Source: Ktedonobacterales bacterium (GTDB taxonomy: Bacteria > Chloroflexota > Ktedonobacteria > Ktedonobacterales > JADMIN01). From it: DNA of 33,867 nt. The stretch spans positions 1 to 33,867 of the forward strand of contig JAICVS010000036.1 in NCBI GenBank assembly GCA_025935195.1. The letters are read 5' to 3'. Position numbers and translations under genes: made by a program. The notes beneath the pieces were generated by a model. The model saw only the letters and a list, made by a program, of their open reading frames with translations. It did not search any database and was not told where the DNA came from. Position 1 is the stretch's first letter. Every line of letters starts with the position of its first letter. This document shows positions 10,243-28,475 of this stretch, piece by piece.

Positions 10243-10585
10243 CGTCGGGCTCTCCTCTGCGTGGGCGGCCGCCTCGCATGCCTGCTCACATGCTTGATCG
10301 CATGCCTGGAGGCGTGCTCGCTGTCCTGCACTCGATGGTATGAACAGTAGACGATAGGAATTCGCAATAACACAAGAGCGCAAGAGCGCAACCGGGCAAT
10401 TTCGCCGGCCATGCTGATTCTTCACAGTCCGCCATTGCGGACTGGGCGGCCGCGGGGCCATCCCGGCGCGATTGCCATCGCCGGCCGGAGCGGGCAAGCG
10501 AGTGCGAAATGGTAGAATAGGCGCGGACGCGCATCAGATTTGGCTGGCGCGAAACAGTGGAAGACGGCGCGGGGAGGAGCGGGAC
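10243..10585. other. Divergent intergenic region upstream of P450 and MOSC genes
   Basis: No gene supported. It contains the 12-bp tandem repeat annotated at 10276-10323, an A+T-richer stretch (10337-10377) with a GCAAGAGC doublet, and a TAGAAT -10-like box at 10514 upstream of the MOSC gene without a good -35 partner. Confidence 0.5.
10276..10323. repeat. Four 12-bp tandem units with CATGC core
   Basis: Units start at 10276, 10288, 10300 and 10312: GCATGCCTGCTC, ACATGCTTGATC, GCATGCCTGGAG and GCGTGCTCGCTG. They lie 34 bp upstream of the P450 start codon, in its likely leader or promoter. The spacing is close to one helical turn and GCATGC is itself a palindrome, so an operator array is possible. 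Confidence 0.6.
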
Positions 10586-11350
10586 ATGGTGGACGGCGCG
10601 CTACCGGTGGTCGGCCAGATGGTTGGCGTGGTGCGGGCAATCTATCGCTATCCGGTCAAGTCCATGCGCGGCGAGGCGCTTGATGCGGCGCGCATTGGCT
10701 GGCACGGCATACCGGGTGACCGCCGCTACGCCTTCGTGCGGGCCGAGAATCGCTCCGCTTTCCCCTGGCTGACGGCGCGACAGGTGCCCGAGCTGCTGCT
10801 CTACACGCCCGCGCTGGATGATCCCGCCCACCCGGCCGGCTCGCCGGTCCGTGTGCGTACACCGGAGGGAGCGGAATATGCCGCCGGCAGCGAGGAGCTG
10901 CATGCCGACATCGCCCGCCGCTACCCGCGCCCGTTCCACCTGCTGCGCCTGGGCATCGGTGCCTTCGACAACGCCCCACTCTCGCTGATCACCACCGGCA
11001 CGCTCGGCGCGCTGGGCGACGCGCTCGGCATGGAGCTGCTGCCGCCGCGCTTCCGCCCCAATCTCGTGATCGAGACGCCGGACGGCGAGCAATTCCCAGA
11101 GGAACGCTGGGTTGGGCACGTGCTGGACGTCGGCGATGGCGCGGAGGGCGCCCGGCTGCGTGTCACCGAGCATGACACGCGCTGCAAGATGATCACGCTC
11201 GACCCTGAGACGGCGCGGGCCGAGCCGCGCGTGTTAGAGGAGGTGGTGCGCTCGCGCGACGAGTGCGCCGGCGTCTACTGCCTGCCTGCGCGGCTGGGCG
11301 TGATCCGCGTCGGCCAGCCCGTGCGCCTCATCTCCGACGCCGATGTGTGA
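10586..11350 (+). CDS. MOSC domain protein
   Basis: ATG at 10586 follows GGGGAGGAGCGGGAC and is preferred to the track start at 10472 (254 aa). Seen: an N-terminal beta-barrel MOSC_N-like segment (IYRYPVKSMRGEAL, about 19-32) and a C-terminal MOSC domain with C200 in DTRCKMITLDPET, the cysteine proposed in this family to handle sulfur from the molybdenum cofactor sulfurase chemistry. RFRPNLVIE and YCLPARLGVIRVGQPVRL are further family hallmarks. Known: MOSC proteins carry sulfur or act as molybdenum-cofactor reductases (YcbX/mARC type). Inferred: a small oxidoreductase or detoxification role. No other molybdenum gene is nearby. Alone on its strand and divergent from the P450. Confidence 0.88.
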   Translation: MVDGALPVVGQMVGVVRAIYRYPVKSMRGEALDAARIGWHGIPGDRRYAFVRAENRSAFPWLTARQVPELLLYTPALDDPAHPAGSPVRVRTPEGAEYAAGSEELHADIARRYPRPFHLLRLGIGAFDNAPLSLITTGTLGALGDALGMELLPPRFRPNLVIETPDGEQFPEERWVGHVLDVGDGAEGARLRVTEHDTRCKMITLDPETARAEPRVLEEVVRSRDECAGVYCLPARLGVIRVGQPVRLISDADV

Positions 11351-11469
11351 GCGACATGACCATCTATCCAACGCCAGTGGCAGTGGTAGCGTGCCGCCGC
11401 TGCGCCGTCCGCGATTGTAGCACGCACGGCATGCGGCGCGGCTGGATGCGGCGCTTGCTCTAGGGAAGT

Positions 11470-11691
11470 TCACTCATGATGCGGACGAAGAATGAGCGGG
11501 CGACCATCCACATTCGGGACGACGATCCGGCCCGCGTCGTAACGTGCAATGATTGCCTGTATGACTAGGAAGAGGCTGGAGCCGAAGAGGCGATGAGAGT
11601 CTTCCATGCGCAACTCTTCCATAATCGCTACTAGCAAAATGTCCCTGAAACGCATGGTCGGGGACGTTTTGCTAACTTTGTGCTGGCTCAT
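11470..11691 (-). CDS. 73-aa protein translationally coupled to upstream peptide gene
   Basis: Not recognised. Its ATG overlaps the stop codon of the 53-aa gene (ATGA, 4 nt), the classic layout of translational coupling, which is the main reason to accept it. Seen: a basic start (MSQHKVSKTSP), a possible amphipathic helix (RFRDILLVAIMEELRMEDSH) and a hydrophobic run (LFGSSLFLVIQAIIARYD). No Cys and no catalytic motif. It could be an immunity-type, regulatory or accessory protein for the preceding peptide, but this is only inference. The region is of lower G+C than most of the window, consistent with acquired DNA. It lies convergent with the MOSC gene across a 119-bp gap. Confidence 0.5.
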   Translation of the reverse strand: MSQHKVSKTSPTMRFRDILLVAIMEELRMEDSHRLFGSSLFLVIQAIIARYDAGRIVVPNVDGRPLILRPHHE

Positions 11692-11849
11692 TTACAGAAC
11701 GGACATCCCTCTCCTGTCTGTGAGATGGCAAGGGCAATCGTCGCTGCCAGCAGCATTATCAGCACCATGGTAGCATACCAGATGCGCGGGTTCACGGTAT
11801 CAATGGATCGGTTCATAGCATACCAGATGTGCCGTATGCTCCGCTTCAC
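11688..11849 (-). CDS. 53-aa single-pass membrane peptide ending in CPFCK
   Basis: Too short for the ORF track. GTG at 11849 is preceded by AAAGGAG with six bases between, an excellent ribosome site. Seen: a basic N-terminus, a partial 15-residue internal repeat (RSI...IWYA twice), one membrane segment (about 27-44, MVLIMLLAATIALAI) and a short polar tail ending GEGCPFCK, a CxxC pair exactly as in thioredoxin-fold redox motifs but without that fold. A promoter-like pair (TTGACC-N17-TATCCT) lies just upstream. Not recognised as a known family. Options: a secreted signalling or toxin-like peptide precursor, a small membrane redox or metal-binding peptide, or a regulator of the neighbouring peptidase. 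The start, coupling and repeat are seen; the role is unknown. Confidence 0.6.
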   Translation of the reverse strand: MKRSIRHIWYAMNRSIDTVNPRIWYATMVLIMLLAATIALAISQTGEGCPFCK

Positions 11850-11873
11850 CAGTCGCTCCTTTCGAGATGAGGA

Positions 11874-11907
11874 AAGCCCTACCCTTGTCGTTACTAGGAT
11901 AGGGCTT
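11874..11907 (-). terminator. Hairpin after glutamic peptidase gene
   Basis: On the minus strand, AAGCCCTATCC pairs with GGGTAGGGCTT (11 bp with one G-U pair) around a 12-nt loop and is followed by TTTCC. It lies 27 bp after the peptidase stop codon. The -10 box proposed for the small-ORF cassette falls inside it, so a transcript starting there would not form the hairpin. Confidence 0.6.
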
Positions 11908-11924
11908 CGATGTGCTCAGGTCAA
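11896..11924 (-). promoter_or_regulatory. Candidate promoter for the small-ORF cassette
   Basis: TTGACC (11924-11919), 17 bp, TATCCT (11901-11896) on the minus strand. The predicted transcript start is about 40 nt upstream of the GTG of the 53-aa gene. It matches sigma70 consensus 5/6 and 4/6. Confidence 0.45.
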
Positions 11925-11934
11925 GCTATCGCAG

Positions 11935-13164
11935 CTACCAGTAGATACAACTCGGAATACCCTCGTTGTACTGGATATTAAAGCTGCTGTTGGGATAAGT
12001 TGGCGGGCCTTCGGTGGTGAAGTCATAAACCGTATTGCACCCGCTGGAGTTGTAGTAGTTCACCGGCCAAATGCCGGGAATGCTCCCGATCCCGTAGAGC
12101 GTGCCAGCCACGATGGCCCGGCAAAACTCCCACAGGATCATCCCAAAGTCGGATTGCCCACTCAGGCTGCCGTTTGGATACTCTGCGATACACTCAGCAG
12201 AGTTCTGGTATGGCCCTGGCGAGTCTGCTGAGGTAAAGTAGTCGCCAGTGGTCTGATCGCTGATGGACGTGCCAGACTGCCAAGCGATGACATCAAGCAG
12301 ATTGCCCGCGAGCGGGGCAAACACAAGGCCATTCTTAGTGAACTTCTGCTGGGTGCAGGACGGCCACACGGACCCCGTATTCTCGTGGAATAGGAACGCC
12401 AAGCCCACGTCTAGTGAGCCAGTAATGGCGACACCTGCTTGTATCAACCCCGGCCCTGAGAGGGGGTGGAGGAAGTCACAGTTCTTTGTGCCATTGCCGC
12501 CACCCACACCGGCCCAGATGTCCGCTTCGTGGTTATCGCCCGGATGGAGATTGGTTGGGACATGGACGTACCCCGTGCCCTCAGTCACGGTGCCGCAGTA
12601 GTTGTACTGAATGCATGGCTCGCAGAACTGACCGATTCCGCAGGGCATGTCATTGCTCTGCACGTCTGTACCCCATCCAGTCCACTTATTTTGGATGACT
12701 GGACCGACGTATGCGCTACCCACTGCGTTCGCGCCCGCGACAACTGGCTGACCATTGTGGTAGTGGTAGACGCTCTCACAGTAGTGGTGCTTCATGTTAT
12801 GCACCACTGTCGCCCATTCCCGCACGCTGCCGAACTGCGCAGGCATCGGCAGACCGAAATGCGCAAGCTCTGCCGGGCTGAACGTTGCCGGGTCGCGTCC
12901 TACTGCCTCATCAGCGGGGCTAAAGCAGTTGGCCTCTCGATGCACAGGCCCATCCGCATCACCCTTCATCGGAATATGTGCGCCGGCATCAGGACCGATA
13001 TTGATGGTCTCTGTCCCATCCGCATTCGGTGTCGCAAATGAAGGTGGTGTGATGGGAGGAGCTGCCTGAACGGGTGATCTCCCACGATACATACCGACTC
13101 CAAGGACGACGAGCAGTAAACGCGCCACTACGATAAGCCGCGATCCTCTGCCAAGCCGTTGCAT
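11935..13164 (-). CDS. Secreted glutamic peptidase (G1/eqolisin family)
   Basis: 409 aa; ATG at 13164 gives a signal peptide (RLIVVARLLLVVLGVGM, cleavage near VQAAP). A propeptide-like region follows, then a domain matching the eqolisin pattern: WAGVGG (217-222), LIQAGV with Q242 at the catalytic Gln position, and SAECIAEYP (322-330) followed by DFG, mirroring the family's SAEWIAEAP...ADFG block, with E324 as the likely catalytic Glu. Known: G1 peptidases use a Gln/Glu dyad at acidic pH and are mostly fungal, with scattered bacterial members. Odd: the usual Asp after WVGI is Gly here, and a Cys-rich insert (CGIGQFCEPCIQYNYC) is present. The gene is visibly lower in G+C than its surroundings, suggesting transfer. 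It has its own strong promoter and a terminator. Confidence 0.72.
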   Translation of the reverse strand: MQRLGRGSRLIVVARLLLVVLGVGMYRGRSPVQAAPPITPPSFATPNADGTETINIGPDAGAHIPMKGDADGPVHREANCFSPADEAVGRDPATFSPAELAHFGLPMPAQFGSVREWATVVHNMKHHYCESVYHYHNGQPVVAGANAVGSAYVGPVIQNKWTGWGTDVQSNDMPCGIGQFCEPCIQYNYCGTVTEGTGYVHVPTNLHPGDNHEADIWAGVGGGNGTKNCDFLHPLSGPGLIQAGVAITGSLDVGLAFLFHENTGSVWPSCTQQKFTKNGLVFAPLAGNLLDVIAWQSGTSISDQTTGDYFTSADSPGPYQNSAECIAEYPNGSLSGQSDFGMILWEFCRAIVAGTLYGIGSIPGIWPVNYYNSSGCNTVYDFTTEGPPTYPNSSFNIQYNEGIPSCIYW

Positions 13165-15171: not shown

Positions 15172-16554
15172 ATGTGGCGCGCAACCCATCTCGTCCGTGG
15201 CATGTGGCGCCGGCGCTGGGGCGCCGCTCTAGCTGCCGGAGCGGCGCTCTCTGCGCTGGCGCTGCCGCCGCGCGTCGCCTTCGTGCCACGCCCCGCGCTG
15301 GCGCTGGCGTTGGCCGCGCTGGGTGGCGCGGCGCTGCTCTGGCCGTGGCGCAGCCGGGTCCGCGTCGTCGCGCATGGTCTCGGCGCGGCGCTGCTCTGGG
15401 GCGTGATCGCGTGGTGCGCGCTCAGCCAGCCTGCGCCGCTCACCCGCCCCGTGGCCTTCTCCTGGAGCCTGCGCGCCCTACCCGTCGCCCTGCTGGCCGG
15501 CGCGTGGCTGCTGATGCGGCTGCCGCGACGCTGGCAGCGCGGCGCCGTCGCCGCGCTCGCCTTACCCACTGTGAGCGGGCTGGGGCTGGTGGCCTGGGCC
15601 AGCCCGCCGCAGCCACCCGACTTCATGCCCTACTACGTCGCGGTGGATTCGCGGGGCGTCGTCTACGCCAGTGACCAGCAGGCGCCGGTCATCCGCGTCT
15701 TCGGCCCGGATGGGGCGCTGCGGGCGAAGATTCGTCCCGGCCTCGCCAGCCTGCGCGACACGCCGAATGCCGGACTCTATCCACCCGGACCGTACAACGA
15801 TCCCGACCAGATCGGCGTGCCGCGCGCCGCCACGGGGACGGGCGCTGTCTCCGGCCGGCTCCAGCCGTGGGCGCCAGGAACGGACGACTTCTGGTTCTGC
15901 GGCCTCGCCGTCGGCCCCGGTGATCGCCTGTACGTGGTGGACTGGATGCGCGGCCGGCTGCTGCGCTTCGCGCCGGATGGGCGGCTGGAGCTGCGCGTTC
16001 CCCTGCCCGCGTCGTACCACCCCTCGCTGGGCTGTGTCACCACCGGCGGCGGGCGGCTCTATCTCGGCGACGAGTCCGGCGCCATCCTCGTGTTCGATGA
16101 TACGGGCGGCGTAACAGGGCGCATCGCGCTGCCGGAGGCGATTGTCGGCGGCGTCAGCCTCACGCCAGATGGGCGGACGCTCTATGCCCTGGCGCGCACT
16201 CGCGTCTACGCCGTGGCGACGGCGAGCGGGCGCGTCACGTCCTGGCCGCTGCCCGCGCCGTCTGGCGCGCTCGGCCAGCCCTACCAGGCGATCCTCGCGC
16301 TCGGCAACCGCGTGCTGATCGCCAATCTCCAGGCGCGGCGCGTGGACGCCTATACGCCGACGGGCGCGGTGCTGCCGGCCATTGGCTTACCCGGCGTGCT
16401 GCCGGGGCAGTTCGGTCAGGTCGGCGGGCTGGCGCGCGACGCTGCCGGCCAGGTCTACGTCGCCGACGTGGACCACCGCGCGCTCCAGCGCTTCGACTCC
16501 GCGGGCGCGGTCAACGCGCTGATCTGGAGCCCCGACGACGACGAGATTGACTGA
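15172..16554 (+). CDS. Membrane-anchored NHL-type beta-propeller protein
   Basis: 460 aa; starts nine bases after the acyl-CoA synthetase stop with only a weak ribosome site, suggesting coupling. Seen: four to five hydrophobic segments in the first 145 residues (ALAAGAALSALAL, ALALAALGGAALLW, GLGAALLWGVIAWCAL, ALPVALLAGAWLLM, AAVAALALPTVSGLGLVAW), then repeated beta-blades with the NHL/SMP-30 look: YYVAVDSRGVVYASDQ, LAVGPGDRLYVVDWMRGRLLRF, VSLTPDGRTLYALAR, GGLARDAAGQVYVADVDHRALQRFDS. About six blades fit the length. Known: such propellers bind ligands or partners and some hydrolyse lactones; no catalytic residues stand out. Inferred: an outward-facing binding or sensor domain. Its tie to fatty acid activation rests only on operon context. 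Confidence 0.8.
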   Translation: MWRATHLVRGMWRRRWGAALAAGAALSALALPPRVAFVPRPALALALAALGGAALLWPWRSRVRVVAHGLGAALLWGVIAWCALSQPAPLTRPVAFSWSLRALPVALLAGAWLLMRLPRRWQRGAVAALALPTVSGLGLVAWASPPQPPDFMPYYVAVDSRGVVYASDQQAPVIRVFGPDGALRAKIRPGLASLRDTPNAGLYPPGPYNDPDQIGVPRAATGTGAVSGRLQPWAPGTDDFWFCGLAVGPGDRLYVVDWMRGRLLRFAPDGRLELRVPLPASYHPSLGCVTTGGGRLYLGDESGAILVFDDTGGVTGRIALPEAIVGGVSLTPDGRTLYALARTRVYAVATASGRVTSWPLPAPSGALGQPYQAILALGNRVLIANLQARRVDAYTPTGAVLPAIGLPGVLPGQFGQVGGLARDAAGQVYVADVDHRALQRFDSAGAVNALIWSPDDDEID

Positions 16555-24529: not shown

Positions 24530-24580
24530 TACAGTACGACTGGCGCGACGCGACTAGCAGGGTTGCGCCGCGCCAGTCGT
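24530..24580 (+). promoter_or_regulatory. -10-like box and long hairpin at 5' end of SUI1 mRNA
   Basis: TACAGT (24530-24535) is directly followed by ACGACTGGCGCG (24536-24547), which is perfectly complementary to CGCGCCAGTCGT (24569-24580) over 12 bp with a 21-nt loop. A transcript beginning around 24541 would carry most of this stem at its very 5' end, 29 nt before the GTG start. It could be an mRNA-stabilising or regulatory hairpin, or a DNA operator. Confidence 0.45.
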
Positions 24581-28421: not shown

Positions 28422-28431
28422 AAGACGGAAA

Positions 28432-28475
28432 GGAGGGGCTAGGAACGCATACGGGCTTCCTAGCCCCTCCTCTTT
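28432..28475 (+). terminator. Rho-independent terminator after MBL-fold gene
   Basis: GGAGGGGCTAGGAA (28432-28445) and TTCCTAGCCCCTCC (28457-28470) form a perfect 14-bp stem with an 11-nt loop, followed by TCTTT. It starts 10 bp after the stop codon. Confidence 0.88.

Follow-up and report, generated by a model that had tools for sequence, protein, structure and literature searches.

A candidate small membrane protein gene that may end at a shared terminator, and its doubtful overlapping partner frame, in a low-G+C stretch of a Ktedonobacterales genome

An A-rich tract before the stem and a T-tract in its distal arm have been described, in a Term-seq study, as the mark of bidirectional intrinsic terminators (PMC12207403). 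Glutamic peptidases of the G1 type are known to exist in bacteria (PMC3009609). The locus analyzed here can be compared with both of these systems, as well as with the lineage-specific small single-pass membrane proteins of bacteria and with small C2H2-type zinc-finger proteins.

The DNA analyzed is contig C216, a stretch of 33,867 nt (hereafter, the window) from a draft genome of 4.74 Mb. Two small open reading frames, ORF1 and ORF2, are found on its minus strand, between a gene encoding a MOSC-domain protein (10472-11350, plus strand) and a gene encoding a 409-aa secreted protein (13164-11935, minus strand). One genome of the same family contains a 59% relative of the MOSC gene, and a synteny test showed that the tested window neighbors are absent beside that relative. 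The features of the locus are as follows:

11470-11691, minus strand: ORF2, 73 codons, sharing ATGA with the end of ORF1, its first 20 codons lying over a hairpin; probably not a gene
11476-11634, plus strand: reading antisense to ORF2, 52 codons (MMRTKNERATIHIRDDDPARVVTCNDCLYD, stop, EEAGAEEAMRVFHAQLFHNRY, stop), with a C-x2-C...H-x4-H pattern, an in-frame TAG at 11566-11568 and its last TAG at the hairpin base
11632-11674, both strands: 17-pair hairpin (TAGCAAAATGTCCC...GGGGACGTTTTGCTA) with an A-tract and a T-tract; probable bidirectional intrinsic terminator
11688-11849, minus strand: ORF1, 53 codons, GTG start, Lys/Arg-rich N-terminus, one hydrophobic segment, C-terminal GEGCPFCK
11771-11787 and 11816-11832: 17-nt direct repeat TAGCATACCAGATGYGC, two copies, inside ORF1
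11856-11862, minus strand: Shine-Dalgarno site AAAGGAG, 6 nt upstream of the ORF1 GTG
11873-11908, minus strand: terminator-like hairpin of the 409-aa gene, 27 nt past its stop, holding the -10 of a promoter-like pair
11924-11896, minus strand: promoter-like pair TTGACC-17-TATCCT, 9/12 match
11935-13164, minus strand: 409-aa secreted protein, probably glutamic-peptidase (G1/A4)-like, by way of a relative matching PF01828

A preliminary description of this DNA had given the ORF lengths and starts, the AAAGGAG site, the membrane segment, the repeat, the CxxC end and the 4-nt overlap, all of which are correct, with the clarification that both ORFs lie on the minus strand. The low-G+C island that it proposed is also real, as the G+C content of the ORF1/ORF2 stretch, which starts near 11470, is 0.52-0.60 compared to 0.65-0.72. 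Our preferred reading of the locus, to which we give about an even chance, is that ORF1 would be one small membrane-protein gene ending at a shared terminator, and that ORF2 would be an open antisense frame.

Several features of ORF1, which translates (11849->11688) as VKRSIRHIWYAMNRSIDTVNPRIWYATMVLIMLLAATIALAISQTGEGCPFCK, point to a real gene. Its AAGGAG is the only one properly placed ahead of any start codon in 11351-11934, and an AAGGAG at the right distance was found for 14 of 6235 random ORFs of the size of ORF1 (about 0.2%). The hydropathy of its hydrophobic 19-residue segment was matched by about 0.06% of random ORFs; both the Shine-Dalgarno site and the membrane segment exceed chance. 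Codon usage was scored with a model trained on twelve genes of the window and with an alternative model trained on the low-G+C gene of the 409-aa neighbor alone. Under the twelve-gene model, the codon score of ORF1 was reached by about 0.6% of random ORFs, and the minus strand was preferred by 17.1 bits (LLR). Under the neighbor-trained model, the score was not significant (8.7%) and the strand preference was gone (-2.5); the codon statistics of ORF1 are therefore support and not proof.

Homologues were searched in 100 relatives, 47 class members, GTDB contigs, viral contigs, phages and plasmids, and none was found in any of these sets for ORF1 or for ORF2. Joint conservation of the pair was not seen in the 100 relatives, the 47 class members or the GTDB contigs, and the homologues in related genomes that the preliminary description had looked to were found for neither ORF. 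Since homologues of ORF1 were found nowhere searched, its reality rests on one sequence and on composition-based nulls. On the other hand, the nearest relatives searched belong to other genera of the same family, and the missing homologues therefore refute the conservation of ORF1 and ORF2, not their existence. One viral contig (L031) initially listed as carrying a relative of ORF1 was rejected, as it matched only through the hydrophobic LLAATIAL of an unrelated LysM-like protein. The CPFCK tail matched no named family in Pfam, NCBIfam or PHROGs. Taken as a whole, the evidence suggests that ORF1 is a genuine small membrane protein gene, an orphan specific to its lineage. The proposal that the locus encodes real unannotated small proteins is supported for ORF1 by the single-sequence statistics of its ribosome site, membrane segment and codon pattern, and probably does not hold for ORF2.

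The direct repeat inside ORF1 could suggest a different role for this DNA. Its two copies are identical at 16/17 positions and 45 nt apart, which is exactly 15 codons, and this spacing is the reason why IWYA occurs twice in ORF1; the remainder of the 45-nt unit is not duplicated. It seems highly improbable to us that the repeat pair is an operator-like regulatory site and the region mainly regulatory or structured RNA between convergent genes, a reading for which the near-identity of two short copies in an otherwise unduplicated unit and the presence of hairpins on both sides could be cited. Against this reading, the repeat lies inside ORF1 at a spacing of exactly 15 codons, and the 14-mer core of the repeat has no other copy in the 4.7-Mb genome, even allowing 1 mismatch. 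Moreover, a structured RNA is disfavored by the finding that no Rfam family scored above its gathering score in this region; the match to SNORD103 (E 0.0099) is below the gathering score and belongs to a eukaryotic family.

Upstream of ORF1, the preliminary description had assigned a promoter-like pair of its own to the small ORFs. The pair exists, but its occurrence is at chance level (two such pairs found in the scanned region versus 1.2 expected by chance) and its -10 lies inside the hairpin at 11873-11908, which consists of a 13-pair stem followed by TTTCC. ORF1 might instead be transcribed by read-through past this hairpin of its neighbor, or from an unrecognized promoter.

The 409-aa neighbor itself had been called a secreted peptidase. 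No direct match to it was found in Pfam, NCBIfam, PHROGs or the PDB, but its relative in a genome of the same family (G007) matches PF01828 (Peptidase_A4) at 1.2e-8, which makes the peptidase assignment plausible. LIQAG and FHENTG, picked by eye, are candidates for the catalytic Gln and Glu. A structure predicted for the protein folded alone reached a pLDDT of 37 and was not usable. The Peptidase_A4-matching relative (L034:2145-2987, minus strand) is followed by a 250-aa protein that has a hydrophobic segment at its N-terminus. A distant paralogue in the same genome (L033:3419-4863, minus strand, contig C251) is apparently split over two overlapping frames by a frameshift. By inspection of the ORF listing, no ORF1-like gene was found beside either the same-family relative or this paralogue. 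Farther along the window, 15172-16554 encodes an NHL/SMP-30-like protein; two paralogues (46%) were found at other places in the genome, and a search of ten genomes of the same family gave none.

Downstream of ORF1, the hairpin at 11632-11674 has a 17-pair stem on the plus strand (including two G-U pairs), and the minus strand has one A-C mismatch; the folding z is -4.1 on the plus strand and -2.3 on the minus strand. This is the longest plus-strand stem of the window; when the complete sequence was shuffled six times, no stem reached 14 pairs. Read on the minus strand, the hairpin starts 13 nt past the stop of ORF1, and on the plus strand its start coincides with the last TAG of the reading opposite ORF2. 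Other long stems of the window are also found close behind stop codons, i.e., 28431-28471 after 28421 and 11873-11908 after 11935; a G+C-rich hairpin of 16 pairs at 24536-24580 has no T run behind it. At 11632-11674, a T run after the stem is likewise absent, with TTTT located within the 3' arm and the stem followed by ACTTTG on the plus strand and GTAGCG on the minus strand. A terminator scan made no call here, as the loop is above the limit of the scan and the T run is missing. With no T run past the stem, termination at this site is something that we infer, and the hairpin is probably a bidirectional intrinsic terminator. The possibility that it represents the end of an insertion sequence was discarded, since GGGACNTTTTGCT was found in the genome only at the two arms of the hairpin itself.

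The position of this hairpin bears directly on ORF2. The TGA of ORF1 (11690-11688) overlaps the ATG of ORF2 (11691-11689) by 4 nt, forming ATGA at 11688-11691. Among first-order Markov sequences with matching length and composition, 68% have a longest ORF of at least 73 codons and 9% contain a near-abutting or coupled pair with at least 45 codons in each ORF; for this reason, ORF length and the ATGA overlap are weak evidence. No Shine-Dalgarno site precedes ORF2, and over its first 20 codons, which lie across the hairpin, the codon score is -0.07. Inside the end of ORF1, an ATG at 11706 (minus strand) follows an AGGAG and opens a 4-codon frame that closes just before the ORF2 start. While the codon score of ORF2 was above those of all 1886 random ORFs under the twelve-gene model, it was not significant (17.8%) under the neighbor-trained model, and the codon signal is limited to about 11473-11631.

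Moreover, this signal is somewhat better on the opposite strand. Over 11476-11631, the codon score is 0.326 on the plus strand and 0.177 on the minus strand, with the plus frame locked to the codon phase of ORF2. A strand test over this lower coding stretch favors the plus strand by 6.1 bits, and such a test has the wrong sign in 14% of real gene pieces; among 70-codon pieces of real genes, 86% scored higher in the sense frame than in its antisense shadow. An AlphaFold2 single-sequence model of ORF2 (pLDDT 62.9) has two helices and a beta hairpin and matched no PDB entry with an E below 3, and it does not discriminate among the competing readings. Two further candidate relatives were rejected: a match in a viral contig (L030) lies only antisense to a 676-aa gene, and a match to PM0188 (0.003) is below the family cut-off and spans 37 residues. 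ORF2 is probably not a gene.

The coupled operon of ORF1 and ORF2 put forward in the preliminary description is thus unsupported, as ORF2 has no ribosome site, starts in a terminator-like hairpin and has no homologue. A true two-gene operon, in which the ORF1 membrane peptide and ORF2 (helix-helix-beta-hairpin) would be expressed by re-initiation at the ATGA, for example as a genus-specific peptide and its immunity or helper protein, appears unlikely to us. The overlap, the open frame of 73 codons, the twelve-gene codon score and the predicted fold are all consistent with such an operon. Against it stand the frequency of coupled pairs of this size in random sequences, the 17-pair hairpin that separates the ORF1 stop from most of ORF2, the stronger plus-strand codon signal, the score under the neighbor-trained model, and the lack of an ORF2 homologue or fold match. 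As to a toxin-antitoxin or bacteriocin-immunity pair, nothing in Pfam, NCBIfam or PHROGs passed the cut-off, and no conserved pairing was found. We consider it quite improbable that the two ORFs form a genus-restricted coupled pair, composed of a membrane peptide that exposes a CPFC thiol pair and of a small protein serving as its helper or conferring immunity, and that this operon contains the hairpin as a regulated attenuator. As ORF2 lies over a terminator-like hairpin and is probably not a gene, the two-gene operon is most likely wrong and ORF1 is probably monocistronic.

The plus-strand reading opposite ORF2 runs from the ATG at 11476 to the TAG at 11632, with one interruption, and a best codon window as high as its own was found in 0.2% of random 584-nt sequences. 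Its Cys-His pattern has an expectation of about 0.1 in a region of this size when stops are ignored, and is therefore only suggestive. A family search gave nothing above threshold (best match, Lar_restr_allev, E 0.096), and searches of relatives, GTDB contigs, viral contigs, phages and plasmids yielded no homologue; the top small-frame match in the phylum (L041, 53% over 30 residues) is antisense to a 576-aa gene and was rejected. It is possible that this reading represents a decayed small zinc-finger-like gene, or that its interruption is a sequence error. The stop in this reading also fits the view that the whole region is non-coding or decayed foreign DNA of lower G+C content, carried along with the peptidase-like gene, and that both ORFs are chance frames. 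The complete lack of homologues, the low G+C content, the frequency of ORFs of at least 73 codons in comparable random sequences and the chance-level promoter all agree with this view, but it is improbable that ORF1 would combine its ribosome site, its membrane segment and its codon pattern by chance, and we regard this view as rather unlikely.

Under our preferred reading, ORF1 would be translated from its own strong ribosome site into a peptide with one membrane pass, its Lys/Arg-rich N-terminus probably inside and its short CPFCK tail probably outside, where its two cysteines could be disulfide-bonded or bind a metal. The ORF1 message would end at the 17-pair hairpin, 13 nt beyond the stop, and this terminator would be shared with plus-strand transcription running towards it. 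ORF2 would then be an open frame covering the terminator and lying antisense to a short stretch of plus-strand coding DNA that has probably decayed. The points against this reading include the missing homologues of ORF1, its result under the neighbor-trained model, the missing T run of the hairpin, the rate of wrong signs in the strand test, the uninterrupted 73 codons of ORF2 and the stop within the plus-strand reading. Should ORF1 be translated, this bacterial lineage, which is sparsely sampled, would gain a further small membrane protein that annotation had missed. The locus also illustrates that a 4-nt overlap can mislead, as the second frame starts in a terminator-like hairpin, and the opposite strand accounts for its codon signal at least equally well.

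In comparison with known systems, ORF1 resembles lineage-specific bacterial small single-pass membrane proteins (under about 60 aa) in its size, single hydrophobic segment, charged N-terminus, strong ribosome site and lack of homologues outside the lineage; it differs in being known here from sequence alone and in a CPFCK tail that belongs to no named family. The plus-strand reading shares with small C2H2-type zinc-finger proteins the C-x2-C-x16-H-x4-H spacing and a 52-codon frame, but carries an in-frame TAG and has no significant family match or homologue. The 409-aa neighbor is similar to glutamic peptidases (MEROPS G1 / Pfam PF01828) in being secreted and in its kinship to a PF01828-matching protein of the same family of bacteria, although it lacks a direct family match and its Gln/Glu candidates were chosen by eye only. 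Finally, while the hairpin at 11632-11674 differs in the size of its loop (9 or more), in a 3' arm with just four T and in lacking a long T run afterwards, it resembles a bidirectional intrinsic terminator between convergent genes in its palindrome of A-tract, GC stem and T-tract, located where the minus-strand and plus-strand units meet and near stops on both sides.
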